DNA of 64,000 nt from Bacillota bacterium (lineage in GTDB: Bacteria; Bacillota; SHA-98; UBA4971), in contig JASEJE010000018.1 of NCBI GenBank assembly GCA_030024085.1, positions 1 through 64,000 on the forward strand. Reading direction: 5' to 3'. How positions within the stretch are numbered: position 1 is the stretch's first letter; every line of letters starts with the position of its first letter. This document shows positions 29,225 through 48,330 of this stretch, in pieces. Position numbers and translations under genes: made by a program. The notes below the pieces were generated by a model, which saw only the letters and a program-made list of their open reading frames with translations, was not told the DNA's origin and made no database searches.

Positions 29225-30124
29225 ATGGCAAGAAAGATCGTCGAATGCGTTCCGAACTTCAGCGAAGGGCGCAGGCCCGAGGTCGTGCAGGAGATCGTCG
29301 CAGCCGTCGAGGGCGTCGCGGGCGTGCGGCTTCTCGATTACTCATCTGACCCGAGCCACAACAGGTCGGTGCTGACCTTCATCGGTGAGCCCGCCCCCGT
29401 CAAAGAGGCGGCGTTCCGGGCCATCGCGAAGGCAGCGGACCTCATCGACATGGAGGAGCACCACGGGGAGCACCCGCGTATCGGCGCCACAGACGTGGTC
29501 CCGTTCGTGCCGGTGCAGGGCGTTACGATGGCTGACTGCGTTGCCCTTGCGCGCGAGCTGGGCGCGAGGGTTGCCCACGAGCTCCGCATTCCCGTCTATC
29601 TCTATGAGGAGGCCGCGACCCGCCCCGACCGCCGTAACCTCGCCGATATCAGGAGGGGCGAGTACGAGGGTCTGAAGAAAGAGATCCATCTGCCTGAGAG
29701 GCGCCCAGACTTCGGGGAGCCGGTGATGCACCCGATGGCGGGCGCGACGGTGATTGGAGCGCGCGAGTTCCTCATCGCGTACAACATCAACCTGGGCACG
29801 TCCGATGTTTCCATAGCCAAGAAGATAGCTCGCGTCATCCGCGCCTCGAGCGGCGGGCTCATGTATGTCAAAGCGCTCGGGATCAACCTCGAGGACCGCA
29901 ACCTGGCCCAGGTCTCCATGAACCTCACCAACTTCAAGAAGACGCCCATGCACGTTGTGTTCAACCTCGTGAAGTCCGAGGCCGAGCGATACGGCGTCCC
30001 GATAGTCGGCAGCGAGATCGTGGGCCTCGTGCCGCTTGACGCCCTCCTCGCCGCCGCCGAGCACTACCTCCGCATAGAGAACTTCTCCCACAAGCAGGTC
30101 CTGGAGACCCGCGTGATGGAGTGA
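29225..30124 (+). CDS. ftcD: Glutamate formimidoyltransferase
   Basis: A 299-residue protein, the formiminotransferase half of animal FTCD. Motifs are IVECVPNFSEGRRPEVVQEI, HPRIGATDVVPFVPVQG with the catalytic His, PVYLYEEAA, and GLMYVKALGINLEDRNLAQV. It transfers the formimino group from N-formimino-glutamate, made in histidine breakdown, to tetrahydrofolate. ATG 29225 is favoured by GGGGATG upstream; ATG 29216 is nine bases earlier. It is first in a hut-like group with hutI and the cyclodeaminase. Confidence 0.93.
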   Translation: MARKIVECVPNFSEGRRPEVVQEIVAAVEGVAGVRLLDYSSDPSHNRSVLTFIGEPAPVKEAAFRAIAKAADLIDMEEHHGEHPRIGATDVVPFVPVQGVTMADCVALARELGARVAHELRIPVYLYEEAATRPDRRNLADIRRGEYEGLKKEIHLPERRPDFGEPVMHPMAGATVIGAREFLIAYNINLGTSDVSIAKKIARVIRASSGGLMYVKALGINLEDRNLAQVSMNLTNFKKTPMHVVFNLVKSEAERYGVPIVGSEIVGLVPLDALLAAAEHYLRIENFSHKQVLETRVME

Positions 30125-30258
30125 GGGCCCGCGCTTTGAGCCGGGGAGACGGCGATTTCATTGGGCTTTACCGGGGAAGGAGGGAAGCGCCGCTGTCGAG
30201 CCTGGGCCTCACCTCGTGAGATGGCCGGGCCGGCGAATGCCGCAGCGGCGCCGCGGGC

Positions 30259-31616
30259 ATGAAGATCCGCGCAGACCTCGTCGTTGAGAATGCAAGCGAG
30301 CTTGTGACCGTCGCGGCGGCCGGGTGCGAACGCGATGATAGCGCGACGCGCGTCGCCCCCGGATCGAGGGGCACGGGCAGGGCGGCGGTGAGTCCGCCAG
30401 GCCTCCCCCGCACCGGGCGGGCCATGCGCGAACTCGGCATCATCGAGAACGGCAGCGTGGCTGCGTTCGGCGACCGGATCGTTGCCGTGGGCCCGTCCGC
30501 CGAGGTGAGGGCGAAGGTGAGCCTTACCCCCGATGCCCGGGTGATCGGCGCCACGGGAAAGGTGGTCCTGCCGGGGTTCGTTGACCCCCACACCCACCTG
30601 GTCTTCGCCGGGTCCCGGGAACACGAGTTCATCCAGCGTGCCGAGGGACGCTCGTACATGGACATACTGGCCTCGGGCGGGGGCATACTGTCCACCGTGA
30701 GGGCCACACGTGCCGCTCCGCCATCGGAGCTTGTCGAGCTTGCTTTGAAGCGCCTGGATGTCATGCTCTGCCACGGCACGACCACCGCTGAGGTGAAGAG
30801 CGGCTACGGCCTGTCCGCGGACGAGGAGCTGAAGTGCCTCCGAGTCATAAGAGAACTCTCCGAGCATCACCCCATGGACATCGCCGCCACATTCCTCGGG
30901 GCGCACGCCGTGCCGCCCGAGTACCGCGGCGATCCTGACGGGTATGTGCTCTGCATCACCGAGGAGATGCTCCCGCGCGTGGCTTCGGAGGGGCTTGCGG
31001 AGTTCTGCGACGTGTTCTGCGAGCACGGGGTGTTCTCCGTCGACCAGTCGCGTCGCATCCTCGAGGCTGGCAAAGCCATGGGACTTGCCCCCAGGCTCCA
31101 CGCGGACGAGATCGCGCCCATGGGCGGCGCCGAGCTTGCCGCAGAGGTCGGCGCGGCGAGCGCGGATCACCTCCTCTGCGCGTCGCCTGACGGCATGCGC
31201 CGAATGGCGGAGGCAGGGGTCGTGGCCACGCTGCTCCCCGCCACATCGTTCACCCTCATGCTCGGGCGGTACGCCGATGCGCGGGCTTTCATCGACGCTG
31301 GCTGCCCCGTGGCCCTGGCCACGGACTTCAACCCTGGCACGTCGCCCGCGCTTTCGATGCAGTTCGTGATGAACCTGGCTGCTTTCGGCATGAGGCTTCG
31401 TCCTGCCGAGGTCATTTGCGCGTGCACCATCAACGCCGCGCACGCCCTCAGGCGCGCTGACGAGGTCGGCAGCCTTGAGGTGGGCAAGCTTGCCGACATC
31501 ATCATCGCCGACATCGACACTCACCTCAAGCTGCCCTATCAGCTCGGGACCAACTTCGTGGACAAGGTCATCAAGCGCGGACAGGTCGTTGTCACCGGAG
31601 GGAGGCGCGTCGTCCA

Positions 31617-31620
<4 letters not shown>
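30259..31620 (+). CDS. hutI: Imidazolonepropionase
   Basis: A 453-residue metal-dependent amidohydrolase that opens 4-imidazolone-5-propanoate to N-formimino-L-glutamate. Metal and substrate motifs are FVDPHTHLVFAGSREHEF (His111, His113), CHGTTTAEVKSGYGL, RLHADEIAPMGG and ALATDFNPGTSP. It is slightly longer than usual (~410) because of a ~30-residue Arg/Gly/Pro-rich insertion near residues 23-52. Its stop overlaps the start of the cyclodeaminase gene (GTGA), indicating translational coupling; its product feeds FtcD upstream. Confidence 0.93.
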
Positions 31621-32423
<803 letters not shown>

Positions 32424-32436
32424 AGGAGGGAGCGGC

Positions 32437-32958
32437 ATGCCCGGAAAGGCGCTTGTGGTGATCGACATGCTGAAGGACTTCATCGACGCCGATGGAAAGC
32501 TCTCTATCGGCCCTGCGGCATCGAAGGTCGTGGAGGCCATCGCGCGGAAGATCGACGAGGCCCGCGCCGCGGGATGGCCGGTCATCTACGTTTGTGACAG
32601 GCACACCGAGGATGACCCCGAGTTCGGCATGTTCCCGCCTCACTGCGTGGCTGGCACCCCTGGTGCCGACGTGGTGGACGAGCTTCGGCCCCGCCCCGGG
32701 GACAAGGTCATCCCCAAGCGCAGGTTCAGCGGGTTCTTCCAGACCGACCTCGACCTCACCCTGCGCGAGCTCGGCGTGGACGAGATAGTGCTGGTGGGCG
32801 TGTGCACGAACATCTGCGATCTCTACACCGCGGCCGACGCCAGGATGCTGAACTACAGGGTCACGGTTCCAAGGGACTGCGTGGCGTCGTTCGACGAGGC
32901 CGCGCACGAGTTCGCACTCAAAGAGATGGAGCGCACCCTCGGCGTCAGGGTGATCTGA
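32437..32958 (+). CDS. Isochorismatase-family cysteine hydrolase
   Basis: A 173-residue protein with the Asp-Lys-Cys triad of the family in ALVVIDMLKDF, VIPKRRFSGFFQTDLD and VLVGVCTNICDLYTAADARM, with a cis-peptide region before the Cys. The family includes nicotinamidases and other amide hydrolases; the substrate is not determinable here. GGAGGG lies 7 nt before ATG 32437. It follows the cyclodeaminase by 13 bp, so it is probably co-transcribed with the histidine-degradation genes. Confidence 0.85.
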   Translation: MPGKALVVIDMLKDFIDADGKLSIGPAASKVVEAIARKIDEARAAGWPVIYVCDRHTEDDPEFGMFPPHCVAGTPGADVVDELRPRPGDKVIPKRRFSGFFQTDLDLTLRELGVDEIVLVGVCTNICDLYTAADARMLNYRVTVPRDCVASFDEAAHEFALKEMERTLGVRVI

Positions 32959-33088
32959 CGGCACCTTATGGCATGGCACCGTTCCAGGGGCACGACTCAG
33001 GAATCCCTGGCTGGGACCGCGATGGTGACCATCGGGTTCGAGGGCGGCCATCTGGTCAGGACACAAGAGCCCCGAGCATCGCAGACCT

Positions 33089-33299
33089 CTAAGTAGATCG
33101 CCACGAATCCGCGCTACTTTTCAGCGCGCAAGTCTTGTCCAGGGTTGCCGGTGTTGCACTCCGGGGACGGCGCGTGCGGTGAGCCTCGTTCGAATCTGGC
33201 GCTCAAGGCTAGCCAAGTTCCAGGCGCCCCGCCCTGGTAAGCACCGCGAGCCCCAGCACCGTCAGGAGAAGTGGCGCAAACTTATGGCGCCATACTTAG
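33089..33299. repeat. Long interspersed structured element, copy 1
   Basis: 211 bp bounded by CTAAGTA...TACTTAG. Next inward is the inverted pair CGCCAC/GTGGCG; inside are a CGCGCT/AGCGCG hairpin, the GTTGCCGGTG core, and a GAATcTGGC/GCCAAgTTC stem (imperfect here). It is closely similar to 46050-46258, with a block of about 40 bp identical. It lies between the isochorismatase gene and folP. Its internal open frame (AKFQAPRPGKHREPQHRQ) is not in frame with folP. Confidence 0.9.
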
Positions 33300-33332
33300 A
33301 AACCTGCCGCAGGGGAAACCGGGGGGATACCT

Positions 33333-34575
<1,243 letters not shown>

Positions 34576-34586
<11 letters not shown>

Positions 34587-34947
34587 CAGGATCATCCTCA
34601 GGAACATGGTGTTCTACGGGTATCACGGGGTTTTCCCAGCTGAGAAAGAACTTGGCCAGAGGTTCGAGGTGGACGTCGAGATGGCGTGCGACCTTTCCGC
34701 CCCGGCGCAGGCTGATGACCTCGAGTCCGGGGGCATCAACTACGTGGACGTCTATACGCAGGTCAAGGACATCGTGGAGGAGCGCGAGTTCAATCTCATC
34801 GAGGCTCTGGCCGAAACCATCGCGCAGGAGATCCTGTCAGCTCACAACGTGGACGAGGTAACGGTGAGGGTGAGGAAGCCCGACGCGGCCATCGGCGGGG
34901 TGCTGGACCACGTGGAGGTGGAGGTCGTGAGGAGGCATGGGCGGTGA
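34576..34947 (+). CDS. folB: Dihydroneopterin aldolase
   Basis: A 123-residue FolB. Motifs are VFYGYHGVFPAEKELGQRFE, the INYVDVYTQVK segment, NLIEALAETIAQEIL and VRVRKPDAAIGGVLDHVEVE. It releases glycolaldehyde from dihydroneopterin to give 6-hydroxymethyl-dihydropterin, the FolK substrate. GTG start overlaps folP. Its last codons contain AGGAGG (34930-34935), placed ideally for a GTG at 34944 that overlaps its TGA, so folK translation is coupled to folB. Confidence 0.93.
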
Positions 34948-36611
34948 CGCTAAGTAGATCGCCACAAACCCGCGCTACCTTTCAGCGCGCAGGTCCTCCG
35001 AATTTGGCGCACAGGCTAGCCAAATTCCAGGCGCCCCGTCGTGCAAGCACCGGCAACCCGGAATCTTCTCCCAAACCGGCATGGATTTCTGAACTCACAC
35101 TTAGCCAAATTCCAGGCGCCCCGTCGTGCAAGCACCGGCAACCCCAACACCGTCAGGAAGAGCGTCGAAGACTTGTAGCGCCATACTCAGCCCTCGCATA
35201 CCTCGGGCTGGGCTCCAACGTTGGCGACCGCAGGCGCAACATGGCCGACGCCGTCAGGATGCTTTCGGAGTCCGGGGACGCAAGGGTTGAGAGGGTGTCA
35301 TCCCTTTACGAGACGGAACCCGTGGGATATGCGGAACAGGGGCCTTTCCTCAACGCCGTCGCCCAGATCGTGTGCGACCTCGCTCCCCCCGGACTTCTGT
35401 CGTTGTGCCAGGATATCGAAGTCAGGCTGGGGCGCAAGCGAACCGTGAGGTGGGGTCCGCGGACCATCGACATCGACATCCTGCTATACTTTGGAGGACG
35501 TCCAGCCAGAGGAGGAAGCCCCGCGGAGCCGGGCGCCATCGGCTTACAGGTTCGTAGCGACCGCGAGGAGACGCCCGCAGGCCTGACCATCGAACCTTCC
35601 CCCGGACGCCTCGAGATCCCTCATCCCCGAATGTGGCAGAGGGGATTCGTCATCATCCCCCTGGCAGAGATCGCCCCCCATGTCGTTGCCCCGGACGGAC
35701 GCAGTGTGAAAGACCTCGCCCGCGACCCTGTCATGCAAAGAGGTGTTTTTCTCCACGCGACCGGCTCATGGTGGAAGCGCGCTGACGAAGGAGGCACCGA
35801 CAGGGGAAGCGGCGGCGCTCGCCACATCCGCGCCCAGGGGCCGGTGTTCCTGGGCCGCGAAGTGCAGCGGCTTGCCGAGGTGGACTCGACGAACGCCGTG
35901 GCGAGACGCATGGCGGAGGCGGGAGCGCCCGAGGGCACGTGCGTCGTGGCCGAGACCCAGACCGCAGGGCGGGGGCGGATGGGACGCACGTGGCACTCGC
36001 CTCCCGGCGGCCTGTGGCTCTCAGTGGTGCTTCGTCCCACGGTGGCGCCCAGAGACGTCGGCAAGCTTGCGCTCGTGACGGGCGTGGCTGTGACAGAGGC
36101 CATCCGCAAGGCGACGAGTCTTCCGGCGAAGATGAAGTGGCCCAACGACGTGGTGGTGCGTGGGAGAAAAGTCAGCGGCATCCTCGTGGAGGGCAGGTGG
36201 CGCGGCGAGGCCGTGGACTACATCGTTGAAGGTATAGGTATCAACGTCGCGGTGGACATTGCCGGCCTGCCCCAGGACATCCAGGCCACCGCGGGCACAC
36301 TCGTCCCTCCCTGCGGCCAGGGCGCCCTGGCGCTCCGGGAGAGGCTTCTCGCGCTGGTCCTGGAGGAGCTGGGCGTGCTCTACCGCCGGTTCTTGTCAGG
36401 CGGGTTTTTGGGCATACTTGAGAAGGCCAGGCTCTACTCCGACACGCTGGGAAGAGAGGTCGAGGCCGCCTGTCCGGGCGGGCCCGTGCTCGGAACGGCC
36501 GTGGACATCGATGCGGATGGCGCCCTCGTGATAAGGACGTCGTCCGGGGATGTTCGGATGGTGTCTGGCGATGTGAGCGTGCGCCGCGCCGGCGGCGGCT
36601 ACTCAGGCTGA
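34944..36611 (+). CDS. folK-birA: FolK-BirA fusion (HPPK fused to biotin-protein ligase) with element-encoded N-terminus
   Basis: A 555-residue single frame. Residues ~84-275 are 6-hydroxymethyl-dihydropterin pyrophosphokinase: AYLGLGSNVGDRRRNMADAV, YETEPVGYAEQGPFLNAV, TVRWGPRTIDIDILLYFGG and LEIPHPRMWQRGFVI. Residues ~300-555 are a class I biotin ligase: GRGRMGRTWHSPPGGLWLSV, AKMKWPNDVVV, SGILVEGRWRG and VEGIGINVAVD, with no N-terminal HTH. Residues 3-83 are read from a repeat element (34950-35190). The only in-frame usual starts before the FolK core are GTG 34944 (AGGAGG 8 nt upstream) and TTG 35004 inside the element. Confidence 0.85.
   Translation: MTLSRSPQTRATFQRAGPPNLAHRLAKFQAPRRASTGNPESSPKPAWISELTLSQIPGAPSCKHRQPQHRQEERRRLVAPYSALAYLGLGSNVGDRRRNMADAVRMLSESGDARVERVSSLYETEPVGYAEQGPFLNAVAQIVCDLAPPGLLSLCQDIEVRLGRKRTVRWGPRTIDIDILLYFGGRPARGGSPAEPGAIGLQVRSDREETPAGLTIEPSPGRLEIPHPRMWQRGFVIIPLAEIAPHVVAPDGRSVKDLARDPVMQRGVFLHATGSWWKRADEGGTDRGSGGARHIRAQGPVFLGREVQRLAEVDSTNAVARRMAEAGAPEGTCVVAETQTAGRGRMGRTWHSPPGGLWLSVVLRPTVAPRDVGKLALVTGVAVTEAIRKATSLPAKMKWPNDVVVRGRKVSGILVEGRWRGEAVDYIVEGIGINVAVDIAGLPQDIQATAGTLVPPCGQGALALRERLLALVLEELGVLYRRFLSGGFLGILEKARLYSDTLGREVEAACPGGPVLGTAVDIDADGALVIRTSSGDVRMVSGDVSVRRAGGGYSG
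34950..35190. repeat. Long interspersed structured element, copy 2 (rearranged, inside folK)
   Basis: It starts CTAAGTAGATCGCCAC like the other copies and ends at GCGCCATACTCAG (one base off ACTTAG). It lacks the ~55-bp GTTGCCGGTG-containing block of copies 1 and 3. Instead it contains the 3' block (CCAAATTCCAGGCGCCCC...CACCGGCAAC) twice, at ~35022 and ~35105. An internal CACACTTAG at ~35097-35105 looks like an element end. The GAATTTGGC/GCCAAATTC stem is perfect. It begins two codons after the folK GTG. Confidence 0.88.
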
Positions 36612-36766
36612 GCGAGCCGCTGGTAGTGCTCGTCACTCCTGGTTGGTCGAGTGGTGCGCGAGGTTGCCGAAACCCAAACCCTCGGGGCAGGGCTGTTCCC
36701 GAGCACCGCGTGCCCCCGAGAAAGCGGCAGAAACCTTTCGTCTCATGCGGGGTGTTCATTCGAAGT

Positions 36767-37210
36767 ATGTCCGCGAAAGTCACCGCCCTCCTCATTGCCC
36801 TCATCGCCGGGGTCTCCATGGCGGTCCAGGGGTCCATCAACACCAGGCTCGGCAAGGTGGTAGGCCAGTGGGAGGCCATTTTCGTCGTGCACGTCGTGGG
36901 ACTCGTGGGAGTGTCCTTCCTGTTGTTCGCGTTGAAGATGGGCCAGGGTGACCTCGGCCGGATCACGAAAGGCCCGTGGTACGCCCCGCTCGGCGGCCTC
37001 ATCGGCGTGCTCATCGTCTGGGGCGTCGTGGCGAGCATTCCGAAGCTGGGGGTGGCGGTGGCGACCACCTCGATAATCGTGGGCCAGGTGCTCACGGCCC
37101 TCCTCATAGACCACTTCGGCCTCTTTGGCCTGCGTGCGGTGGCGTTTACATGGCCGAAGGGGCTCGGGCTGTTGTTGCTCGCAGCCGGTGCTAAACTGCT
37201 CCTGGGTTGA
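36767..37210 (+). CDS. DMT-superfamily (YdcZ/DUF606-like) membrane protein
   Basis: A 147-residue protein with five membrane segments (TALLIALIAGVSMAVQGSIN, IFVVHVVGLVGVSFLLFAL, PLGGLIGVLIVWGVVASIP, VAVATTSIIVGQVLTALLID, GLGLLLLAAGAKLLLG). The length and the N-terminal QGSINTRLGK match the DUF606 half-transporters of the drug/metabolite superfamily. The substrate is unknown. ATG 36767 fits the family N-terminus although its Shine-Dalgarno is weak; the frame is open back to 36626 without homology. Confidence 0.8.
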   Translation: MSAKVTALLIALIAGVSMAVQGSINTRLGKVVGQWEAIFVVHVVGLVGVSFLLFALKMGQGDLGRITKGPWYAPLGGLIGVLIVWGVVASIPKLGVAVATTSIIVGQVLTALLIDHFGLFGLRAVAFTWPKGLGLLLLAAGAKLLLG

Positions 37211-37771
37211 CGCGCCGATGACGGCGGCCCGCGCGTCCGGCCGGGACATGTCAAATGAAGTTTCAATCTCGTGGAATGGCAGGAAATACTAATCACCTGT
37301 CGAATACTTCCGACGTGGGGCAACATGTTGCATCGTTGCAGGGGTTGAGCCTGGCTGCTGCCACTTTAGTGTTCGTGGGAACGCAGTATCGTCATATCTG
37401 CCATTTCAACAAGCACCAGAGTTGCCGCCGGGCCGGACGATCGCTCCAGGATGGAGGCGGGCCAGCCTGGGGGGCCAAACGACCCGGCTCGAACGCCGGG
37501 GGAAGGTGAAGGCTTCCGGACGGCGGCGTGTGCATGATGCGGTTGCAGCGAAATCCACGACCATCGGTGGTCCTGGTCCTGCGCAGGAGCAGGGGCCCTG
37601 GATGCTGATGGTCGTCGTGTGTCTGTCCAGGCGCCGTTCGGGGCCATGGGCACCGCGCCCGGACGTCTGCAACTGTATGTCGCTCGGTTGAGGTTCGGGT
37701 AGCAAGACCTGAGCCCCCGCCAGCCGAAGCGCGGCACAAGGGGGTTCGAGAAGGCAGCGAGGTAATGCATA
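37211..37771. other. Intergenic region with an AT-richer promoter-like patch
   Basis: 561 bp with no convincing gene. 37250-37420 is distinctly less GC-rich and contains GGCAGGAAATACTAATCACC followed by TGTCGAATACTTCC, resembling a binding or promoter module, but I cannot name it. The rest shows only shadow frames. Confidence 0.45.
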
Positions 37772-40150
37772 GTGACTCATGATCGACGTCACCGCAGGGG
37801 ACGCTCGTGCTTGCCGCATGCCGCGCTTCGGGGACCGGCGCACTCATCGTTCGGCTCATACTGGGTCCCCCTCTCGAAGGATCTTCGCACCCTCGACGGT
37901 CTCGGCGGCAAGGCGGCCTTCTACCGCGATCTGCTTCGCCTTGTCCTTCTGGCCTGCCGGGCCGACCGTGCGCTGGCCCTGGAGATCGATCCTGCGCTCC
38001 GGACATCGCACCGGACTTTAGTGCACGTTTACCCGCAACCGACTTCCCCGCAACAAGAGCGACTCTGGGCGTACGTCGCAGGTTATGTGCGATCCGCTCT
38101 TCGCGAGGGTGTAGACGTGCGGCTTCCGCAGGACCTCAGGGACGCGCTCGACCTTGCGTCGATGCTTGTGGTACCTGCATTCGGCGACAAGGGAGTCTTC
38201 GCTGTCATCGCCGTGTTTTCCGGAGCGTCCTCTCCCCCGCTGGGCGCTGATGTCGAGCAGCTTCTCCGCACGCTGGCAAGCCTGTTCCCGGATGTGGCCG
38301 ACCACGTGGCCCGCCGCGCATCTTCGCCGACCGGGGCACCCCGCCTTCTCAGACTCCTGAAGGCACGTGGGGCCCTCCGTTCCGCGGGGAGATTGTGCTG
38401 CGTCCTCGACGCCGCGACGTATCTCATTGAGAGGGCAGGCTTTGCCGATGCCGTGACGTTCAGGGCGCTGAACGTGGAGACCGGTGAACTCGAGGTGATT
38501 GCCTCGTCAGGTCGGACGTGTTGCGACAGGATGGAGAACCCGGTGCCGGCATCCCGATGCAGGGCCGTCGGAGCTGCCGCGGAAGGGGTTGTCGTGCAGG
38601 CTGGAGAGGGAGGGGAAGCGACCTGCCCTCTGTTGCGAGGACCCGAGAGAACCCGGAGTGGTCAGGCCGTGTGCGTGCCGGTCCGGGTGGGCCGCGAAGT
38701 GGCGGCCGCGCTGGAGGTCTGGCTGCCCCAGGGAGAACGGCTGGACGCAACGGCGATGCGTCTTGTGGAGGCCGTTGCCGAGATGGCAGGCAAAGCATTC
38801 GCCGAGGCCAGCATTCACCCCTCGCGGGGCGAGAGCGATTTCAGGTCCGCCATCATCGACACGTTCGCCATCGTGAGCAAGACGTCGAGCGATCCCGCAT
38901 ATGTCGCAGCGACCCTCCTCAGGGCGCTCCATGCGGCCGTCGCCTTCGATGTCGGGGCGGTGGTAGACTGTCACGACAAACACAACGACGTTGCCATAGT
39001 TCAGTTGTGCTCGTTTCATTGGACACGCCCCGACAGCCAGCCCGGTCGCGGCGCGGAAATGGAGGCGGACGCCGAGGCTGGTGCTCGGGCCGGGGCTGAG
39101 GCTGAGCCCGAGGCCGTGGTTGAGGGCCTTTCGACCCCTGGGGCGCCCGGGACCTCGCTGCGGTGCACGGTCGGTGATGAGGACGCGAGAGCCTGGGTGA
39201 ACCAGGTGATGCAGATGGCAAGGCCGTTTTCAGATGGGCTGTCCACGAAGCGGCTTTACCTGCCTGACGCTCGCTGGCACGTCGGCCTCATCGTCCCGCT
39301 TGCGGTCGCCGGATCCGTCGTGGCCTTCCTCGTGCTGGGCAGGGTGGAGAGCGCGGGGTTCTCCCGCGGCAAGCTTGAGTTCCTGGAGAGCGTGCGCGAA
39401 GGGCTCGCGGACCTCTGGGACGGCCTTGTTCGCCGGACTCGCCCTTCGTGGCGGGCAGCAGAACAAGCCATGGCGGAGCGGATTGCGACCCTCGAGCAGC
39501 TCGCTGCAGGCGCGGCCCACGAGATCAAGAACCCGCTTTCCGTGATTAAGGGTTACCTCCAGGTGATCCAGGCGGACCCGGGCACGTCTGATGTGACAAA
39601 AAAGCGAATCGGGCGCCTCTTTCGCCAGCTCGACCAGATCAACGATGTGGTGGAGGATTTCTCGCAGCTCGTGAGGCCGATGACTCCCGAGCTTGCGCCA
39701 CTTTCGCTCACCGGAATGCTCGAGGAGGTCGTCGAAATCGTCGAGGCCCAGGCGTCCAATATCGGCGTGAAGATCGTGAGGTCCTACGCTGAGGACACGC
39801 CGGAGGTGATGGCTGACGGCGGGAAGCTGCAGCAGGTTTTCCTGAACCTCTGCAGGAACAGCCTCGAGGCCATGGCGCCTGTGGGCGGCGGCGAGCTGCG
39901 CGTCTCCACCAGAACCTCGGCGGACGGTCGCGCCGTTGAGATCGAGTTCCGCGACACCGGGCCCGGAATGACGAGCGAAGTCATGTCGCGCATCTTCAGC
40001 CCGTTCTACACGACGAAGAAGCACGGGACAGGCCTCGGGCTGACTATATCCATGCACATCGCAAAGCAGCACGGCGGCACGATCCGGGCGCAGAGCACCC
40101 CGGGCGCCGGTGCGACGTTCACCGTCGTCCTGCCGATTACCCAGAGGTAG
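37772..40150 (+). CDS. GAF-domain sensor histidine kinase
   Basis: A 792-residue soluble kinase without evident membrane segments. The N-terminal ~560 residues hold GAF-like sensing regions, with a low-complexity Ala/Glu tract near residues 428-450 (EMEADAEAGARAGAEAEPEA). HisKA H-box: GAAHEIKNPLSVIKGYLQVI (His583). Catalytic domain: FLNLCRNSLEAM (N box), FRDTGPGMTSE (G1) and GTGLGLTISMHIAKQHGGTI (G2). GTG 37772 has GAGGT 8 nt upstream. No response regulator is adjacent, so it is an orphan kinase; the signal is unknown. It resembles sporulation/NtrB-type kinases. Confidence 0.88.
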   Translation: MTHDRRHRRGRSCLPHAALRGPAHSSFGSYWVPLSKDLRTLDGLGGKAAFYRDLLRLVLLACRADRALALEIDPALRTSHRTLVHVYPQPTSPQQERLWAYVAGYVRSALREGVDVRLPQDLRDALDLASMLVVPAFGDKGVFAVIAVFSGASSPPLGADVEQLLRTLASLFPDVADHVARRASSPTGAPRLLRLLKARGALRSAGRLCCVLDAATYLIERAGFADAVTFRALNVETGELEVIASSGRTCCDRMENPVPASRCRAVGAAAEGVVVQAGEGGEATCPLLRGPERTRSGQAVCVPVRVGREVAAALEVWLPQGERLDATAMRLVEAVAEMAGKAFAEASIHPSRGESDFRSAIIDTFAIVSKTSSDPAYVAATLLRALHAAVAFDVGAVVDCHDKHNDVAIVQLCSFHWTRPDSQPGRGAEMEADAEAGARAGAEAEPEAVVEGLSTPGAPGTSLRCTVGDEDARAWVNQVMQMARPFSDGLSTKRLYLPDARWHVGLIVPLAVAGSVVAFLVLGRVESAGFSRGKLEFLESVREGLADLWDGLVRRTRPSWRAAEQAMAERIATLEQLAAGAAHEIKNPLSVIKGYLQVIQADPGTSDVTKKRIGRLFRQLDQINDVVEDFSQLVRPMTPELAPLSLTGMLEEVVEIVEAQASNIGVKIVRSYAEDTPEVMADGGKLQQVFLNLCRNSLEAMAPVGGGELRVSTRTSADGRAVEIEFRDTGPGMTSEVMSRIFSPFYTTKKHGTGLGLTISMHIAKQHGGTIRAQSTPGAGATFTVVLPITQR

Positions 40151-40366
40151 CGACGCACGCTCAGAACGAAGGATGGCGCCGTGAGTCTACGCCGCTTCTC
40201 CCGACGGTGTCGAGGTCGCCGATGCTTGCCAGGGCGGGGCGTCGAGGCGTTTATTGGTCTTGAGAAACCCAGCTATCTGTGCGAAGATTATGTTCGTGCG
40301 GACGCAGCAGTGGCATTGCCGACGCAGGCAGGCCATGGGCCGAGCGCCGGCCGAAGCTGCAACAAC

Positions 40367-40404
40367 GCAAGGGAGCAAGGGAGCAAGGGAGCAAGGGAGC
40401 AAGG
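40367..40404 (+). repeat. 8-bp tandem repeat GCAAGGGA (4.75 copies) over the ychF ribosome binding site
   Basis: Perfect 8-bp units at 40367, 40375, 40383 and 40391 plus a partial unit, ending 4 nt before the ATG at 40409. Each unit contains AAGGGA, so the array itself supplies the Shine-Dalgarno sequence. Confidence 0.85.
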
Positions 40405-40408
40405 CAAC

Positions 40409-41512
40409 ATGCAGGTGGCAATAGTCGGACTTCCATCGTCGGGAAAGACAACCCTCTTCAACCTCCTCACCGGTGCGGGACCCGGCCCGGGGAACGGCGT
40501 CGCCGACGCGGGGGCAGGCAGGAAGGCAGGGGTGTCCGTGAGGATGGCGCGGGTGCCTGACGGGCGGGTTTCATACCTTGCGGACGTATTCAAACCCAGG
40601 AAGACCACGTACGCCCAGGTGGAGGTGGCCGATGTCCCGGGCATCACGCCGCAGGGAGACGCGTCGGAGATGACCCGGTTCCTCACGTACCTCCGCACCG
40701 TGGACGCTTTTGTGTACGTGGTTCGTACTTTCGAGGACGCGCCCGGGGCGCTCCCTGTCGAATACGAGATCGACCCCATCAACGAGGTTGAGGCTCTCAA
40801 CCTCGACCTCATCTTCGCCGACCTCAAGGTGGTGGAGGGGAGGCTGGAGCGCCTCGAGAGTTCCAGGCGGAGGAGCACTGACGAAGACGAGGAGCTCGAG
40901 CTCCTGAGGGCGATCCGCCCGTCGCTTGCTGACGGAGTCAGGCTGGACAGGCTTGATCTCTCGACCGAGCAACAGGCGAAGCTCAAAGGCTACGCGCTGC
41001 TCACCCTAAAACCCGTTGTCGTGGTGCCAAACCTCAGCGAGGACGATTTCGCAACCCGTGCCTATCCGGGCAGGCGTGACCTCGAGGAGTTCAGCCGGGA
41101 GAGCGGGGTGCCCATCGTGGAGCTGTCTGCGAAGATCGAGCTCGAGATTTGCGGCCTGCCCGAGCGCGAGCGCAAGGAGTTCCTCGATGGGTACGGAATA
41201 CAGGAACCGGCGGTCGCCCAGCTTTCCAGGGAGCTGTACGAGGTCCTGGGGCTCGTGTCCTTCTTTACCGTCGGCGAGGACGAGGTCAGGGCCTGGCCGA
41301 TCAAGAGGGGAACGACCGCGAGAAAGGCCGCCGGCGAGATACACTCCGATGTCGAGAGAGGGTTCATCAGGGCTGAGGTGATCTCGTTCGACGATTTCAA
41401 GGCGAGCGACGGCTCTGTCGCCGCTGCCCGGGCGAAGGGCCTGTACCGTCTCGAGGGTAGAGACTATGTCGTGAAGGACGGGGATATCATCAATTTCCGC
41501 TTCAACGCATGA
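40409..41512 (+). CDS. ychF: YchF/Obg-related GTPase (ATPase) with TGS domain
   Basis: A 367-residue P-loop protein. MQVAIVGLPSSGKTTLFNLL is the G1 motif, with SSGKTT instead of the usual NVGKST, a variant known in divergent YchF. ADVPGITPQGDASEMTRFL is G3. The C-terminus is the DUF933/TGS domain (GEIHSDVERGFIRAEVISFD, YVVKDGDIINFRFNA). YchF binds ribosomes and prefers ATP. ATG 40409 follows the 8-bp repeat array; the frame is open upstream but not conserved. A Gly/Ala-rich insert (GPGPGNGVADAGAG) follows the P-loop. Confidence 0.88.
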   Translation: MQVAIVGLPSSGKTTLFNLLTGAGPGPGNGVADAGAGRKAGVSVRMARVPDGRVSYLADVFKPRKTTYAQVEVADVPGITPQGDASEMTRFLTYLRTVDAFVYVVRTFEDAPGALPVEYEIDPINEVEALNLDLIFADLKVVEGRLERLESSRRRSTDEDEELELLRAIRPSLADGVRLDRLDLSTEQQAKLKGYALLTLKPVVVVPNLSEDDFATRAYPGRRDLEEFSRESGVPIVELSAKIELEICGLPERERKEFLDGYGIQEPAVAQLSRELYEVLGLVSFFTVGEDEVRAWPIKRGTTARKAAGEIHSDVERGFIRAEVISFDDFKASDGSVAAARAKGLYRLEGRDYVVKDGDIINFRFNA

Positions 41513-41596
41513 TCATGCCGAAACCTCAACTACTTGCGTGCCGGGAGGAATCGCGGCGGGTGAAGACGTGGCGTGCGACTCCGTTGCGACTCCGTA

Positions 41597-41785
41597 GTGA
41601 ACGACGACCCGGCGGGCGGCCCGGTGGTGCCCGCTGACGTCGGGCCTCCGCGGGAAGAGGTGGGACGGGCGCTTCGGGGCGCCGAGGAGGTTCGCCGGCG
41701 CTACACAGTGATGCAGCTTGCAGACGAGCTTGGCTGGCTCGACGAGATCGCCGGCGAGGTGGAGGGCTGCAACGACATCGCGTGA
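41597..41785 (+). CDS. Small hypothetical protein upstream of the flagellar operon
   Basis: A 62-residue frame from GTG 41597 (VNDDPAGGPVVPADVGPPRE...YTVMQLADELGWLDEIAGEV). It is acidic, with a predicted C-terminal helix. No family or clear Shine-Dalgarno is recognised. It is followed by a structured region and an intrinsic terminator. Confidence 0.3.
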   Translation: MNDDPAGGPVVPADVGPPREEVGRALRGAEEVRRRYTVMQLADELGWLDEIAGEVEGCNDIA

Positions 41786-41825
41786 GCGAGAAAGCGGGTG
41801 GAGATGATGGTAGGCTCGAATGAGG

Positions 41826-41945
41826 AGATCTCTCTGTGGGTAAATTTTGCTCACGCAGGCGGTCACTTTTGCGAGGGGAACGACATCCGCCTGTGCGGGA
41901 GACAACGGTTGTCAGTCGGCGGCAGCCTCTGTGGCTGCCGCTTTT
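41826..41945 (+). ncRNA. Candidate structured RNA / attenuator leader
   Basis: Three successive hairpins can be drawn: CAGGCGG/CCGCCTG (~41863 and ~41887), GACAA/TTGTC (~41901-41913), and a 9-bp terminator hairpin at 41919-41941 followed by TTTT. The spacing resembles a riboswitch or attenuator ahead of flgF, but I matched it to no known class. It could also be the 3' end of the upstream transcript. Confidence 0.4.
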
Positions 41946-41950
41946 CTGTT
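41919..41950 (+). terminator. Rho-independent terminator
   Basis: GCGGCAGCC (41919-41927), loop TCTGT, GGCTGCCGC (41933-41941), a perfect 9-bp GC-rich stem, then TTTTCTGTT. It is the clearest intrinsic terminator in the window. Confidence 0.75.
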
Positions 41951-42191
41951 GTCCTCGGGGGCCCGGTCCCCCGGGGGGACACTGGCACGGGAGTTGCTTA
42001 ACCTTCGAAGCGAATGTTCTCCGCTCAAGGCAGAAGGGCCCTTTGCCGCTCCAATCCGACGTGGGGTCGTGCGGAGCGGGACCTGCGGAGGCAAGGGATT
42101 CCGGCCTGTGGCCTGCGCGCGGCTGGCGGCCGGGCGACCTGGTGGCGATGTACGAAGCTCGATAAGACAACAAGACGAGGGAGGTGAAAGG

Positions 42192-42986
42192 TTGGTTCGA
42201 GGGCTTTACGCGGCGGCATCGGGTATGGCCGCAGGGATGTTGCGCCAGGACGTCATTGCACAGAACCTGGCCAACGTGGACACGCCGGGCTACAAGAAGG
42301 ACATCGCGCTCATCGGCTCTTTCGGCGACGAGATGGCGGTCCGCGTAGAACGCATGGAAGACGCAGGAGGCCGCGGTGCGTGGCGCCTGGCGAGAACCGT
42401 GCCGCTGGGCACGCTCGGGTCCGGGACGTATGTCATGGGCACAGGGTTCGACCGCAGCGGGGGGCCGATCATCGAGACCGGCGCACCACTCGACCTGGCG
42501 ATCCAGGGGGATGGGTACTTCGTCGTCCAAACGCCGGAGGGTGTCGAGGCCTACACACGCAACGGCTCGTTTACGCTCAACTCCAGGGGCGAGCTTGTCA
42601 CGAGTGACGGCATGCGGGTCCTGGGGGAGACCGGGCCGGTCGTCGTCCCCTCCGGCAGCGAAGTGGAGGTGCGCGGCGACGGCCAGATAGCTGTGGACGG
42701 CCGAGCCGTGGCGAGGCTCAGGGTCGTGACCTTCGACGGCCTGTCCGCCCTGAGGAAGACAGGCGGCGGCCTCTTTGAGGCGCCTCCAGGGGCGGCGCGC
42801 CCGGTCAGGGCGGCGGACGGGCCCCTCGTGAGGCAGGGATTCCTCGAGATGTCCAACGTGACCGCTGTGACAGAGATGGTCCAGATGATCGCCGGGATGC
42901 GCGCGTATGAGACGTGCCAGAGGGTCATATGGTTCCTCGACCAGACGCTTGACAAGTCCATAAACGATGTTGGGAGAGTTGCGTAG
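42192..42986 (+). CDS. flgF: Flagellar hook-basal body rod protein, FlgF-like
   Basis: A 264-residue rod protein. The N-terminus VRGLYAAASGMAAGMLRQDV with IAQNLANVDTPGYKKD is the flagellar rod signature. The middle has LAIQGDGYFVVQTPEGVEAY with TRNGSFTLNSRG, and the C-terminus has [20 protein letters not shown] with MRAYETCQRVI, the paired helix. It forms the proximal rod. Start is TTG 42192 with GGAGGTGA 4-5 nt upstream; the longer open frame upstream crosses the terminator and is not homologous. FlgF is assigned by order before flgG; FlgF and FlgG are close paralogs. Confidence 0.85.
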   Translation: MVRGLYAAASGMAAGMLRQDVIAQNLANVDTPGYKKDIALIGSFGDEMAVRVERMEDAGGRGAWRLARTVPLGTLGSGTYVMGTGFDRSGGPIIETGAPLDLAIQGDGYFVVQTPEGVEAYTRNGSFTLNSRGELVTSDGMRVLGETGPVVVPSGSEVEVRGDGQIAVDGRAVARLRVVTFDGLSALRKTGGGLFEAPPGAARPVRAADGPLVRQGFLEMSNVTAVTEMVQMIAGMRAYETCQRVIWFLDQTLDKSINDVGRVA

Positions 42987-43268
42987 ACCCGTTGAACCCG
43001 TCGACGCCAGAGTGGCTGGACCGCGCAAGCGGAGGCTGAGGGCCGCCGAACGACTGAGGCGGCCCGGGCAGGGCGCGAGGATGACTCGATCCCATGCGTT
43101 GCCTGGCTTCATGACGCCAGGCTTCGGGATCCGACTTTTCAGGGTTTTTCGGGACGGCTCCCCTGCTGGTCGTGGGGCGCGCGCCACGCGGCCAGGGTTT
43201 GGGTCGTCCTTCTTGTTTGCATAGGACGCCACAAGGCGGCCGAGGATGGCACAAGGCGGTGAGGAGAA

Positions 43269-44057
43269 ATGATGCGAGCGTTATGGAGCGCGGCCACGGG
43301 CATGCTGGCGAAGCAGCTTGGAATGGACGTCATCGCCAACAACCTGGCCAACGTCAATACATACGGGTTCAAGAGGAGCAGGGTGGACTTTCAGGACCTC
43401 ATGTATCAGAACCTTCGCACCTCAGGGTCAACCGTGGCGGAGGGCGCGAGGGTGCCCGCCGGCATAGAGGTCGGCCTGGGCACGAGGCCCGCCGCTATCC
43501 AGAGGATCTTCTCCCAGGGCGATTTCATCCAGACCGAAGGCACCCTGGACCTCGTGATAGAGGGCGACGGGTTCTTTCAGGTGCTGATGCCGGACGGCAC
43601 CGTGGCCTATACGAGGGACGGCGCCTTCAAGAGGGACAGCGAGGGCAGGATCGTCACGTCGGACGGCTTCCCCATCGAGCCCGAGATCACCATTCCGCCT
43701 GAGGCGGTGGACCTCTCCATCGGCACAGACGGGACGGTCTCGGTGATCCTGGCGGGCCAGAGTGAGCCTCAGGATCTCGGCAAGATCGAGCTTGCGAAGT
43801 TCGTGAACCCGGCCGGACTCTCGGCCATCGGACGCAACCTGTTCACGGCGACCGCCTCGTCCGGCCAGCCGGTGGTGGGCACCCCGGGCCTCGAGGGCTT
43901 CGGCACGATATCCCAGGGGTTCCTGGAGATGTCCAATGTGAAGGTGGTCGAAGAGATGGTCAATATGATCATCGCCCAGCGCGCCTACGAGGTGAACTCC
44001 AAGGCCATCCAGACGTCCGATGACATGCTGTCGATAGCCAACAACCTCAAGCGGTAA
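43269..44057 (+). CDS. flgG: Flagellar distal rod protein FlgG
   Basis: A 262-residue protein with canonical FlgG features: [20 protein letters not shown] and [20 protein letters not shown], then [28 protein letters not shown], and the C-terminal [20 protein letters not shown] with [18 protein letters not shown]. It forms the distal rod that crosses the periplasm and meets the P- and L-rings. GAGGAGAA precedes ATG 43269. The 282-bp gap to flgF shows no gene. Confidence 0.93.
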
Positions 44058-44078
44058 GCAGGCGAGGGTGATGCTTGC

Positions 44079-45236
44079 GTGGCTGGCGCAAATGCTCGAT
44101 ACGGACGCGGTCTGAACAAAGCGCTCATCCTCGCGGCGGCGCTCGTGGCGATGGTGACGCTGGTGGCGCCGATGTTCCTTGAGAGTTGCCTTGTAGAGGT
44201 CGATGCGGCCGACGCGGCCGACGCGGCCACCGCCACCGCCACGGCTACCGCTGCCGGCGCGGCCGATGGTGCGGACAAGGCCTGCGAGACCGGTGGGGCC
44301 GGCGGGCCGGCGGCACAGACGACGGAGCGAGTGAGGATCGAGATCCCCAGCCCGGCCGAGGTAAGGCGCGCCGTCATCAGGCTCGGGGACATTGCGAGCA
44401 TCGGCGGCGAGGCCGGTGACTGCGCTGATGACGTGGCCGCCCGCCTGCGTAACATTGAGATCGGGCAGGCACCGCTCCCGGGGCAGGAGCGCACGCTGAG
44501 CCTCGCGATCGTGCGGGTCAGGCTGAGGCAGGCCGGGTTCGACCCCGACGACATGGTCATCATTAGCCCAACCACGATCGTTGTGAGGACCCGCGCCGCA
44601 ACGGTCGCCGCGAATGCCATCGCCGCCGCCGTGCGCGACTTCATCGAGGCGAAAATGCCCTGGGGCAAGCGCGAGGCGGAGGTGGCCGTCCTTCTTGGGC
44701 CGAACGAGGACGTCCTCGTCCCGGAGGGGGAGGTGTCGCTCGAAGTGGAGGCCCTGCCTACCACGAGGTTCATCGGCAACACCAGCGTCAAGGTGACGGT
44801 GCTGGTTGGTGGGACACCCTACAGGGCGTTCCCGGTGAGGCTGAGGGTGGACGTGGCAAAGGCCGTCGTCGTGGCGGCGAGGACGATCCAAAGGCACGAG
44901 ACGATCGCCTCGTCGGATGTGCGAATCGAGACGAGAGACCTTGCGCGCATGCCGCAGGACGTGGTTTTCGACCTTGCGGCCGTCGTGGGCATGCGGGCGA
45001 GCCACACGATTCCGGCGGGGCGCCCGGTGGCGGGTTCAAGTGTGGAACCGCTACCCGTAGTGCGCAGGGGCGAACTCGTGACCATCGAGGCTGTCCTGGC
45101 CGGGGTGGTGGTCGCGAGCCCCGGCGAGGCGCTGGAGGACGGCTGCGAGGGAGCGCGCATTCGCGTGAGAAACGTGGCGTCCGGAACGATCATCCGCGCC
45201 GTGGTGATTTCGTCGAAGGTGGTCCGCGCCATCTGA
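44079..45236 (+). CDS. flgA: Flagellar P-ring assembly chaperone FlgA
   Basis: A 385-residue periplasmic protein. Residues ~12-30 form the signal/membrane segment (KALILAAALVAMVTLVAP). Residues ~43-62 are an Ala-Asp/Ala-Thr dipeptide repeat (AADAADAATATATATAA). The C-terminal ~140 residues include the SAF domain typical of FlgA (ARTIQRHETIASSDVRIETR, GMRASHTIPAGRPVAGSSVE) and a final ASGTIIRAVV segment. FlgA helps FlgI assemble into the P-ring, so its presence with flgH/flgI implies an outer membrane. Start GTG 44079 has GAGGGTG ~8 nt upstream. It is longer than the usual ~220-residue enterobacterial FlgA. Confidence 0.85.
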   Translation: MAGANARYGRGLNKALILAAALVAMVTLVAPMFLESCLVEVDAADAADAATATATATAAGAADGADKACETGGAGGPAAQTTERVRIEIPSPAEVRRAVIRLGDIASIGGEAGDCADDVAARLRNIEIGQAPLPGQERTLSLAIVRVRLRQAGFDPDDMVIISPTTIVVRTRAATVAANAIAAAVRDFIEAKMPWGKREAEVAVLLGPNEDVLVPEGEVSLEVEALPTTRFIGNTSVKVTVLVGGTPYRAFPVRLRVDVAKAVVVAARTIQRHETIASSDVRIETRDLARMPQDVVFDLAAVVGMRASHTIPAGRPVAGSSVEPLPVVRRGELVTIEAVLAGVVVASPGEALEDGCEGARIRVRNVASGTIIRAVVISSKVVRAI

Positions 45237-45243
45237 TTTCGAG

Positions 45244-46047
45244 GTGCCGGTATTCATGCCGGCAATCAAGGATGCTTTGCGGGGTGATGCTGCTGTGCCC
45301 GCGAAACCTGGATACAAAGTGAAAGGTGAGCATCGTTCGCGCGAGAACACGCCTGTAACTCGCACCCGGGAGGACCGTCCCGGTACCCGCGCGTTCTGTA
45401 CGCTACGCCGTATCACGCGGGTGCGACTGCAGTGCGTTGCCGCCCTGCTTTTTGCGGTCTGGTGTGTTGCGGGCGTTGCGGGGGTCCCGGGCGAGGGGAG
45501 CGCAAGCGCTGCCGATCCTCCGCTTTCGCTGTGGGGCGACCATGCCCGCTCGCTGTTCGCCGATCACAGGGCGAGGCAGGTGGGCGACCTTATAACCGTG
45601 CTCATCACGGAGCGGTCATATGCCAGTAACAAGGCGCAGACGTCTGCGGGCAAAGGCGCCGGGATCACCGTCGCCGAGGGTGTCGGAGTGTTCTCGTTTC
45701 TCCCTGAGACCGGTTTTTCCGCGAACGCCAAGTTCAGCGGCCAGAACACCACGTCGCGGTCGGGGAGTCTGGTCGCCAGGATGACCGCGAAGATCATAGA
45801 GGTGCTGCCCGACGGCAACCTCCGCATCGAGGGCACCCAGGCGCTCGTCATAAACCGTGAGAAGCAGAACATCATCATCACCGGGATCGTGAGGCCTGAG
45901 GATATCGGGAGCGACAATACGATCCTCTCGACGTACATCGCGGATGCCGAGATCAAGTACGACGGCGCCCTCAACGTCGAGCAGAGGAAGGGCCTGCTGT
46001 CGTATCTTGGGCGGTTCTTCGCAGGGATACTCGATTTCTTGTTCTAG
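45244..46047 (+). CDS. flgH: Flagellar L-ring protein FlgH
   Basis: A 267-residue frame. Core motifs are SLWGDHARSLFADHRARQVG with DLITVLITE, FSANAKFSGQNTTSRSGSL, MTAKIIEVLPDGNLRIEGTQ with ALVINREKQ, GIVRPEDIGSDNTILSTYIA, and a C-terminal LGRFFAGILDFLF. The L-ring sits in the outer membrane. A hydrophobic signal segment (VRLQCVAALLFAVWCVAGVA) occurs at ~60-79, so the true start may be GTG 45421. I see no standard lipobox, so unlike E. coli FlgH it may not be a lipoprotein. Confidence 0.88.
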   Translation: MPVFMPAIKDALRGDAAVPAKPGYKVKGEHRSRENTPVTRTREDRPGTRAFCTLRRITRVRLQCVAALLFAVWCVAGVAGVPGEGSASAADPPLSLWGDHARSLFADHRARQVGDLITVLITERSYASNKAQTSAGKGAGITVAEGVGVFSFLPETGFSANAKFSGQNTTSRSGSLVARMTAKIIEVLPDGNLRIEGTQALVINREKQNIIITGIVRPEDIGSDNTILSTYIADAEIKYDGALNVEQRKGLLSYLGRFFAGILDFLF

Positions 46048-46049
46048 TG

Positions 46050-46258
46050 CTAAGTAGATCGCCACAAATTCGCGCTACTTTTCAGCGCGCAAGTCCTGTT
46101 CAGGTTGCCGGTGTTGCACTCCGGGGACGGCGCGTGCGGTGAGATGCGTTCGAATTTGGCGCACGGGCCAGCCAAATTCCAGGCGCCCCGCCCTAGCAAG
46201 CACCGGCAACCCCGACACCGTCAGGAGAAGTGGCGCAAACTTATGGCGCCGTACTTAG
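46050..46258. repeat. Long interspersed structured element, copy 3
   Basis: 209 bp, CTAAGTA...TACTTAG, starting 3 bp after the flgH stop. It contains the CGCGCT/AGCGCG hairpin, the GTTGCCGGTG core, a perfect GAATTTGGC/GCCAAATTC stem and CACCGGCAAC. An open frame in it (AKFQAPRPSKHRQPRHRQEK) continues in frame into flgI, although flgI probably starts after the element. Confidence 0.9.
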
Positions 46259-46293
46259 ACAGACCTGTCAGAGAGCAGGGGGTGGAACCTGCC

Positions 46294-47712
46294 ATGGAAC
46301 GAGATCAGTGCCCTGGCGGCCCTCATCGCCGCCGCGACCAGCGCGGCGCCAATGGCTCAAGCGCCAGGCGGATGGCCGCCACGCGCGTGCGAGCCATACG
46401 GAGCGCGCAAACCACACAGGCCGGACAGCAGGCCGCGCCCGCTGTCCCCGGTGTGCACCACCGACAGCACCTGGAAAGGCTGCAGCAGTCGCCCCGCTCA
46501 CACCTGGCGCTGGCCGTCCTCATCGCGGTCGTGACGCTTGCGGGCGTGTCTGCGGGGTTTGCGCCGGCAGTCTGCGCTGAGTCTAGGATCAAGGACATCG
46601 CCCACGTGGAGGGCGTGAGAGACAACGACCTCATCGGCTACGGCCTCGTCGTCGGGCTGAAGGGCACAGGGGACTCCAGTGGGGCGATGTTCACCGTCCA
46701 GTCGGTCGCCAACATGTTGATGCGGTTCGGCATCAAGATCACGCCGGACCAGATGCGTGTCAAGAACGTCGCCGCGGTCATGGTCACCGCGAGGCTCCCG
46801 GCGTTCGCCCGCGTCGGGGACCGCCTCGACGTGGTGGTGTCGTCGGTGGGCGATGCGCGGAGCCTCGAGGGTGGCACGCTTCTACTCACGCCGCTCCTCG
46901 GGCCCGACGAGAAGATGTACGCCGCAGCGCAGGGGGTTGTCTCGCTCGGTGGCGGGGCAGCGGGGACCAGGCAAAAGGTGCATCCAACCGTGGCCAGGAT
47001 ACCAGAGGGTGCCACGGTCGAGCGGGAGCTTGCCACGGCCATCGCAGGCGCGACGGCCGGCACGATCACCCTTGCCCTCGCCGAGCCGGACTTCGTTACG
47101 GCCGATCGCATGGCGAGGGCCATATGCGCGCACCTGGGCGAGGGAGTGGCAAAGGCCACCGACGCTGGTGCCGTCGATGTGCGGGTGCCGCCCGAATACG
47201 CCGACAACCTGGTCGCCCTCGTGGCGCTCATCGGCGAGATCCCTGTGACGGCTGATGTGCCGGCCCGGGTCGTCTTCAACGAGCGTACGGGCACCGTCGT
47301 CATCGGCGGGACGGTCAGGATACTTCCGGCGGTGGTGTCCCACGGGAGCCTGCGGGTGCAGATCTCTGCAAGGGCGGAGAGTCCGGCTCTCACTGCTCCC
47401 GGAGGAGGCGGCGCGCAGGCCACGGCCGAGACCGAGGCCGGAGCTGCGAACTCGCAGCCTGGCCCGCAGCCGACTCCGGGCCTGGACTCAAATCTGACCT
47501 CCGCTGAGGGCGGGTCCGTGCGGCCGGGCCGGGGCCAGGTTGCCGCGGCTGCCGGGACGGGGGGCACGGTGTTCGACATCTCCTCGATGGACACGGTGGA
47601 CGCCCTCGTGGCGGCGCTGAACGCCGTCGGAGCGACGCCCCGGGACATCATCGCCATCCTGCAGGCGCTCAAGGCGTGCGGAGCCCTTCTCGCGGAGATC
47701 GAGGTCCTCTAA
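46294..47712 (+). CDS. flgI: Flagellar P-ring protein FlgI
   Basis: The mature region begins at SRIKDIAHVEGVRDNDLIGY, followed by GLVVGLKGTGDSS and RFGIKITPDQMRVKNVAAVM; later come GGTLLLTPLLGPDEKMYAAA, AVDVRVPPEYADNLVAL-like VPPEYADNLVALVALIGEIP, VVIGGTVRI and a C-terminal domain. FlgI forms the P-ring in the peptidoglycan layer. A signal peptide (HLALAVLIAVVTLAGVSAG) precedes it after ~65 Arg/Gln-rich residues. ATG 46294 is a compromise: the frame is open back through the repeat element to TTG 46105, and GTG 46282 is also possible. A ~50-residue low-complexity insert lies near the C-terminus. Confidence 0.85.
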   Translation: MERDQCPGGPHRRRDQRGANGSSARRMAATRVRAIRSAQTTQAGQQAAPAVPGVHHRQHLERLQQSPRSHLALAVLIAVVTLAGVSAGFAPAVCAESRIKDIAHVEGVRDNDLIGYGLVVGLKGTGDSSGAMFTVQSVANMLMRFGIKITPDQMRVKNVAAVMVTARLPAFARVGDRLDVVVSSVGDARSLEGGTLLLTPLLGPDEKMYAAAQGVVSLGGGAAGTRQKVHPTVARIPEGATVERELATAIAGATAGTITLALAEPDFVTADRMARAICAHLGEGVAKATDAGAVDVRVPPEYADNLVALVALIGEIPVTADVPARVVFNERTGTVVIGGTVRILPAVVSHGSLRVQISARAESPALTAPGGGGAQATAETEAGAANSQPGPQPTPGLDSNLTSAEGGSVRPGRGQVAAAAGTGGTVFDISSMDTVDALVAALNAVGATPRDIIAILQALKACGALLAEIEVL

Positions 47713-47765
47713 CGAGCGTACAGAAATGATCCCGACTTTGGGATGGGTTGCTGGTGACTCAAAGA
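47711..47765. repeat. Partial copy of the short palindromic element
   Basis: The stretch ACAGAAATGATCCCGACTTT...TGCTGGTGACTCAAAGAGAG closely matches the inverted complement of the right half of the 8760-8885 element. It lies between flgI and flgJ. No opposite end is recognised. Confidence 0.65.
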
Positions 47766-47805
47766 GAGACAACGGACGTGCATCTCTCCAAGGAGGAACG
47801 GACCA

Positions 47806-48264: not shown

Positions 48265-48289
48265 ACAGCCCGCCCTGACTTGCCGATAA
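48262..48289 (+). promoter_or_regulatory. Sigma-28 (FliA/SigD) promoter of the flgM operon
   Basis: TAAA (48262-48265), a 16-nt spacer and GCCGATAA (48282-48289), matching the consensus TAAA-N15-GCCGATAA apart from one extra spacer base. The flgM start is ~35 nt downstream of the expected transcription start. Confidence 0.8.
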
Positions 48290-48330
48290 GATCACCGAGA
48301 ACGAGTCGGTATCGGAGAGAGGTGCGTGCC

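Follow-up and report, generated by a model that had tools for sequence, protein, structure and literature searches.

Organization of the folK-birA locus

In the window analyzed here, a stretch of 64,000 nucleotides from a Bacillota bacterium (contig JASEJE010000018.1), the folB gene is followed by an ORF (34944–36611) in which HPPK and biotin-protein ligase domains are joined; the features are listed in Table 1. Unbroken matches across both domains suggest that the HPPK-birA fusion is also present in several relatives of the family. The TGA of folB (34945–34947) overlaps a GTG (34944–34946) that is preceded at a distance of 8 nt by an AGGAGG motif, and the original prediction had given exact coordinates for these signals. 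The FolK core, AYLGLGSN, begins at 35196 in the same frame as this GTG. Solved HPPKs align, from their residues 2–6, to the ORF from residue 84 onward, which leaves 82 or 83 additional residues at the N-terminus. From GTG 34944 up to ATG 35241, the frame contains a single other ATG, GTG or TTG codon, TTG 35004, which lies inside the inserted element and has no good Shine-Dalgarno sequence. No such codon occurs in frame between the end of the element and the HPPK core, which confirms a statement of the original prediction.

Table 1. Features of the folK-birA region and neighbouring MITE copies in the window
Feature	Position	Strand	Remark
Standard MITE copy, 211 bp, upstream of folP	33089..33299	+	
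folB (dihydroneopterin aldolase)	34576..34947	+	ORF list, Pfam PF02152
AGGAGG, Shine-Dalgarno-like, inside folB	34930..34935	+	8 nt before GTG 34944
folK-birA fusion ORF, 555 codons, from GTG 34944	34944..36611	+	
C and putative left copy of the TA target duplication (target CTAG)	34950..34952	+	
Inserted MITE, composite copy	34953..35187	+	probably read in frame as about residues 4–82
43-nt repeat, first of two identical, in the composite copy	35017..35059	+	
43-nt repeat, second, identical	35102..35144	+	joins type-B end (...CACACTTAG) to type-A 3' arm
Putative right copy of the target duplication (CA, decayed TA) and G	35188..35190	+	
HPPK (FolK) catalytic domain, directly after the element	35196..35678	+	Pfam, TIGR01498
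Biotin-protein ligase (BirA-like) domain of the folK-birA ORF	35859..36581	+	
Partial copy, MITE 3' half	40169..40264	-	
Standard MITE copy, 209 bp, complete hairpin	46050..46258	+	

Profile searches found one copy each of folK and birA in the genome. As these were the sole copies found, it is unlikely that folK-birA is a dead gene, and read-through of the element and expression of the ORF are likely. The original prediction had raised the question of disorder in the element-encoded peptide, and the AlphaFold model of FolK-BirA gives pLDDT values below 50 for residues 1–65 and of about 90 for the core; the N-terminal extension is thus predicted to be disordered. HPPK of this genus also has an additional low-complexity loop of about 40 residues (35490–35610, between DILLYF and LEIPHPRM), which varies among the relatives and is likewise predicted to be disordered.

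A palindromic MITE family and its insertion footprint

We searched the genome for the 14-nt end motif of the element (CTAAGTAGATCGCC) and obtained 195 matches with at most two mismatches, compared with 10 for the reversed control; these numbers bear out the claim that positions 34950–35190 are an interspersed repeat. A 261-bp query likewise gave at least 53 matches (40 of 364 candidates scored). The consensus and the limits of the unit were derived from about 80 copies with their flanks. The resulting family, referred to as family A, has a consensus of 211 bp with ends AGTAGATCGCC...GGCGCCATACT, contains 22-bp terminal inverted repeats, is palindromic throughout and comprises about 185 copies, of which about 100 were examined. 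It has the generic features of MITEs, namely a length within 50–600 bp, no transposase coding, terminal inverted repeats and multiple dispersed copies. Compared with its shuffles, the 46050 copy folds better by 5 standard deviations, and an Rfam search of window positions 30000–50000 returned no family matches near the element. The five further genomes of the genus all contain matches to family A, though one has few, and the sister genus has partial, more diverged copies. A sister MITE family, B, has its middle in common with family A and ends of its own (...GGATTTCTGAACTCACACTTAG), about 40 of which were seen in the fetched loci (L003–L030 and others). When compared with gene models, 74 of 80 copies were intergenic and none lay within a gene model, a count that underestimates in-gene copies because the gene caller scores the folK copy and a copy in a SpoIID-family gene as intergenic. 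The window also contains short-period repeats at 4697–4837, 22981–23065 and 39053–39125.

Occupied sites have the form C-TA-[AGTAG...CATACT]-TA-G and empty sites consist of four bases. Among 79 copies, the outer bases were C (97%) and TA (84%) on the left and TA (76%) and G (94%) on the right. An empty counterpart was seen for a copy in a double-ABC ATPase gene, where the site reads CTGAGTAG...ATACTTGG here and CCAG in the orthologue of the related genome G003, and for the copy at locus L103, which lies in a tandem repeat whose corresponding repeat at L006 has CCAG. Both tandem repeats are built of GTGACGTACGTCA-like units, one of which bears the MITE. Among empty sites, CCAG was thus seen twice, one transition away from CTAG, and CTAG itself in no case. 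The net gain of a standard insertion is 207 nt, or 69 codons. The simplest reading of these sites is an insertion into the TA of CTAG with duplication of the TA. We had also looked for classical target-site duplications of 1–11 bp outside the CTAAG ends and found no clear excess; a TA inside the conserved ends fits better.

IS630 and its relatives target TA and prefer CTAG, as stated in the passage of PMC2170065 that cites Tenzen and Ohtsubo (1991). The footprint accordingly points to a MITE of IS630/Tc1-mariner-type insertion, and it is the footprint on which the probable transposase type is based, since a search of the genome for a DDE_3 transposase as autonomous partner gave no match and the transposase remnants in three relatives (G001, G002 and G004) have ends that do not clearly match those of the MITE. 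Possible reasons are loss of the partner transposon, its location in sequence missing from the assembly, or its membership of another family. At gene 3' ends facing a copy, the stop codon falls exactly at the CTAA of the element in 30 of 80 cases and at an alternative TAG in 1, as is expected if stop codons of the form C-TAG made up many of the targets; an insertion at C-TAG gives C-TAA, so that the protein is unchanged. CTAG is depleted ten-fold in the window (21 occurrences, 213 expected).

At the folK locus, relatives of the same genus have empty sites. Their folK starts directly after folB with an ATG that overlaps folB and is preceded by GTG or CTG, and AYLGLGSN follows within a few residues. 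Because the relatives' core directly follows this ATG, sequence comparison indicates that the folK site is an originally empty one. When CTAG is restored, GTG ACG CTA GCC CTC GCA TAC aligns codon for codon with GTG ATG GCG GCC TTT GCC TAC of the relatives; CTAG is present at the site in none of them, and a CTAG ancestor is thus a probable rather than an observed state. The codon after GTG is ACG here and ATG in the relatives. On this alignment, the original start codon has also changed, beside the insertion, and the natural start that remains is GTG 34944, 8 nt after AGGAGG. The proposal that this GTG is the natural coupled start is therefore the most likely one.

The folK element spans 34950 (CTAAGTAGATCGCC) to 35190 (GCGCCATACTCAG), i.e. 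241 bp beginning two codons into folK, and results in a net gain of 237 nt (79 codons). It is no standard unit but a composite that combines the 211-bp family A with the sister family B: the type-A 5' arm is followed by a segment that terminates with the type-B end CACACTTAG, and then by the type-A 3' arm. Since this type-B end falls exactly at the internal CTAG of type A (GGCTAGCCAAATTC), the folK copy looks like a MITE nested within another MITE; the same join of a type-B end to type A is present at L002. Much of the left half has been lost and with it the long hairpin, so that the folding z-score is -1.2 in the folK copy and -5.1 in intact copies. The ATG near the 3' end of standard copies (KLMAPYL) is GTA in the folK copy.

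Probable read-through of the element in folK and other genes

Two further in-frame insertions were found. In the SpoIID-family gene (C22:57993, L110/L222), the copy separates the start region from the hydrophobic stretch of the signal peptide, and restoration of CTAG gives VIL-VTALAL, compared with VML-SCALVL in relatives; this protein may instead start at an ATG within the element. In the double-ABC ATPase (C28:8159, L206, G000:C28:7172-9337), the copy lies in the linker joining the two ATP-binding domains, and the gene has 721 codons compared with 652 in the G003 orthologue, the sole alignment gap being exactly 69 codons. This orthologue lacks the MITE and is 92% identical. The folK, SpoIID-like and ABC copies share one orientation and phase, the only stop-free one of the consensus, an agreement that is partly due to ascertainment, since the search that yielded these cases was one for open frames. 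Long open frames also run through L013, L091, L098, L100, L109, L171, L180, L182, L186, L200–L203, L207 and L208; these were not counted as in-frame insertions because their flanks are non-coding or coding on the opposite strand, or because the gene starts later by itself. In five gene models the start codon comes from the element itself, at 16 nt from its end (ATGGCGCCATACTTAG or GTGGCGATCTACTTAG); such starts were likewise set aside, since L186 and L190 have an ordinary later start.

We consider it probable that a MITE in the third codon of folK is read through from GTG 34944 and that the resulting extension is tolerated, not used. A MITE inserting into the TA within CTAG would have entered the third codon, duplicated the TA and added whole codons (79 here and 69 for the standard unit), with the element oriented in its only stop-free frame. 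The ribosome would start at GTG 34944, coupled to folB, and read through the element, and the product would be FolK-BirA with an arginine-rich, unstructured N-terminal extension of 80 residues that is tolerated rather than used. Initiation at GTG 34944 with about 80 element-derived residues is most likely, and given this start the sequence supports the earlier claim that some 80 residues of FolK derive from a mobile repeat.

An unlikely alternative is that translation starts later, at a non-standard codon by the core such as CTG 35208, which lies within it, or at the in-frame TTG 35004, in which case the protein would contain the element in part or hardly at all. Codon usage, which is non-coding-like within the element and gene-like in the FolK core, would agree with such a late start, since untranslated DNA would show this pattern; the same pattern is expected of foreign sequence that is read through. 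However, a start at CTG 35208 would truncate the first beta strand and remove the beginning of GLGSN, near residues 2–6 in solved HPPKs, and TTG 35004 without a good Shine-Dalgarno sequence would compete with GTG 34944 and its AGGAGG at 8 nt. The intact frame of 79 codons also argues against a late start.

It is improbable that the family is a coding selfish element of the kind found in Rickettsia, selected for an open frame and encoding a peptide that matters. Such an element would account for a consensus frame that is open over 70 codons, a 207-nt net gain of whole codons and three in-frame insertions in the same frame and orientation. However, when the ends were kept and the interior was shuffled, this frame was open in 31% of the shuffles, and among the copies it is open in 23 of 79, with a net length that is a multiple of three in 19 of these. 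The data thus do not support selection for the open frame, nor any suggestion that a repeat which "stayed open", in the words of the original prediction, has a special property in this respect. As the frame is often open by chance, most copies lie between genes with none in a gene model, and the in-frame cases were ascertained by their open frames, we regard the in-gene copies as tolerated passengers and not as coding elements. We give a small chance to the broader idea that new protein segments arise generally from the MITE family of this genus and that a function has been acquired by some of the copies inside genes, the FolK extension among them. If so, the 207-nt gain, the stop-free frame and the CTAG target would make insertions in or near genes nearly harmless.

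It is also improbable that the locus is a degraded gene or a misassembly that joined a repeat into folK. The genome is a draft of 65 contigs, several of which begin inside the repeat (positions 42–98), and draft assemblies break at repeats. However, both flanks match the syntenic folB-folK of relatives and differ by only four bases, the rest of the ORF is intact and includes the sole folK and birA of the genome, and a misjoin would not be expected to keep frame, target footprint and synteny together. We regard as extremely unlikely a normal protein made after removal of the element from the mRNA or skipping by the ribosome: exact loss of 34950–35190 would bring the core into the frame of ATG 34937 (MGGDALAYLGLGSN), but this agreement has a one-in-three chance, the ATG lies one base from AGGAGG, the Rfam search of positions 30000–50000 gave no intron or other RNA family match near the element, and no bypass signal is known to us for repeats of this kind.

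Comparison with known systems

The family resembles bacterial MITEs of the IS630/Tc1-mariner type in being short, transposase-free, palindromic and high in copy number, with long terminal inverted repeats and a putative TA duplication in CTAG, as read from the footprint; it differs in that no partner transposase was found in the present genome. Correia elements of Neisseria are also MITEs with a TA duplication, which appears to be shared with the present family, but their host is unrelated and they are known for promoter and RNA-processing effects, not for in-frame fusion. QMITE1 and QMITE2 of Coxiella burnetii, ERIC and the MITEb/MITEe of Anabaena are likewise MITEs that lie across gene ends, code for peptides or lengthen ORFs (PMC5896051, PMC10969869); for the QMITEs, overlaps with gene ends and extensions are described (PMC5896051). 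The present MITE differs from this group in ends, duplications and host. Our literature search, which included a minority of subscription papers, found no description of an IS630-type footprint combined with in-frame fusion.

A parallel in outcome was already drawn in the original prediction, which compared the element with the in-frame palindromic elements of Rickettsia (RPEs), naming that group alone. RPEs are palindromic repeats of 100–200 bp that lie in frame within unrelated housekeeping genes, and in R. conorii nearly half of them are in genes (review, PMC10969869). According to the same 2024 review, in-frame MITE fusions are not unusual and are known outside Rickettsia, RPEs being the extreme case (PMC10969869), so that in-frame elements are not peculiar to that genus. 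The comparison stands as an analogy, strengthened by the two further in-frame insertions, since the present MITE is also found in frame inside protein genes (folK, SpoIID-like and double-ABC ATPase). It does not extend to membership: neither the 83-aa extension nor the 70-aa consensus peptide had a hit in NCBIfam (E-values up to 10), RPE models included, and Pfam gave none either. The present family differs further in being mostly intergenic and in having a defined insertion footprint. By analogy, it acts like the Rickettsia palindromic elements without being one of them. RPEs have so far counted as the most extreme example of mobile DNA persisting within coding genes, and the present family suggests a similar outcome in an unrelated lineage, by a mechanism that can be read as a CTAG target, a TA duplication, a gain of whole codons and a single open frame. 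Relatives with the empty site would thereby make it possible to test how mobile DNA is turned into protein, including in FolK, a core enzyme of the folate pathway, and in the double-ABC ATPase.
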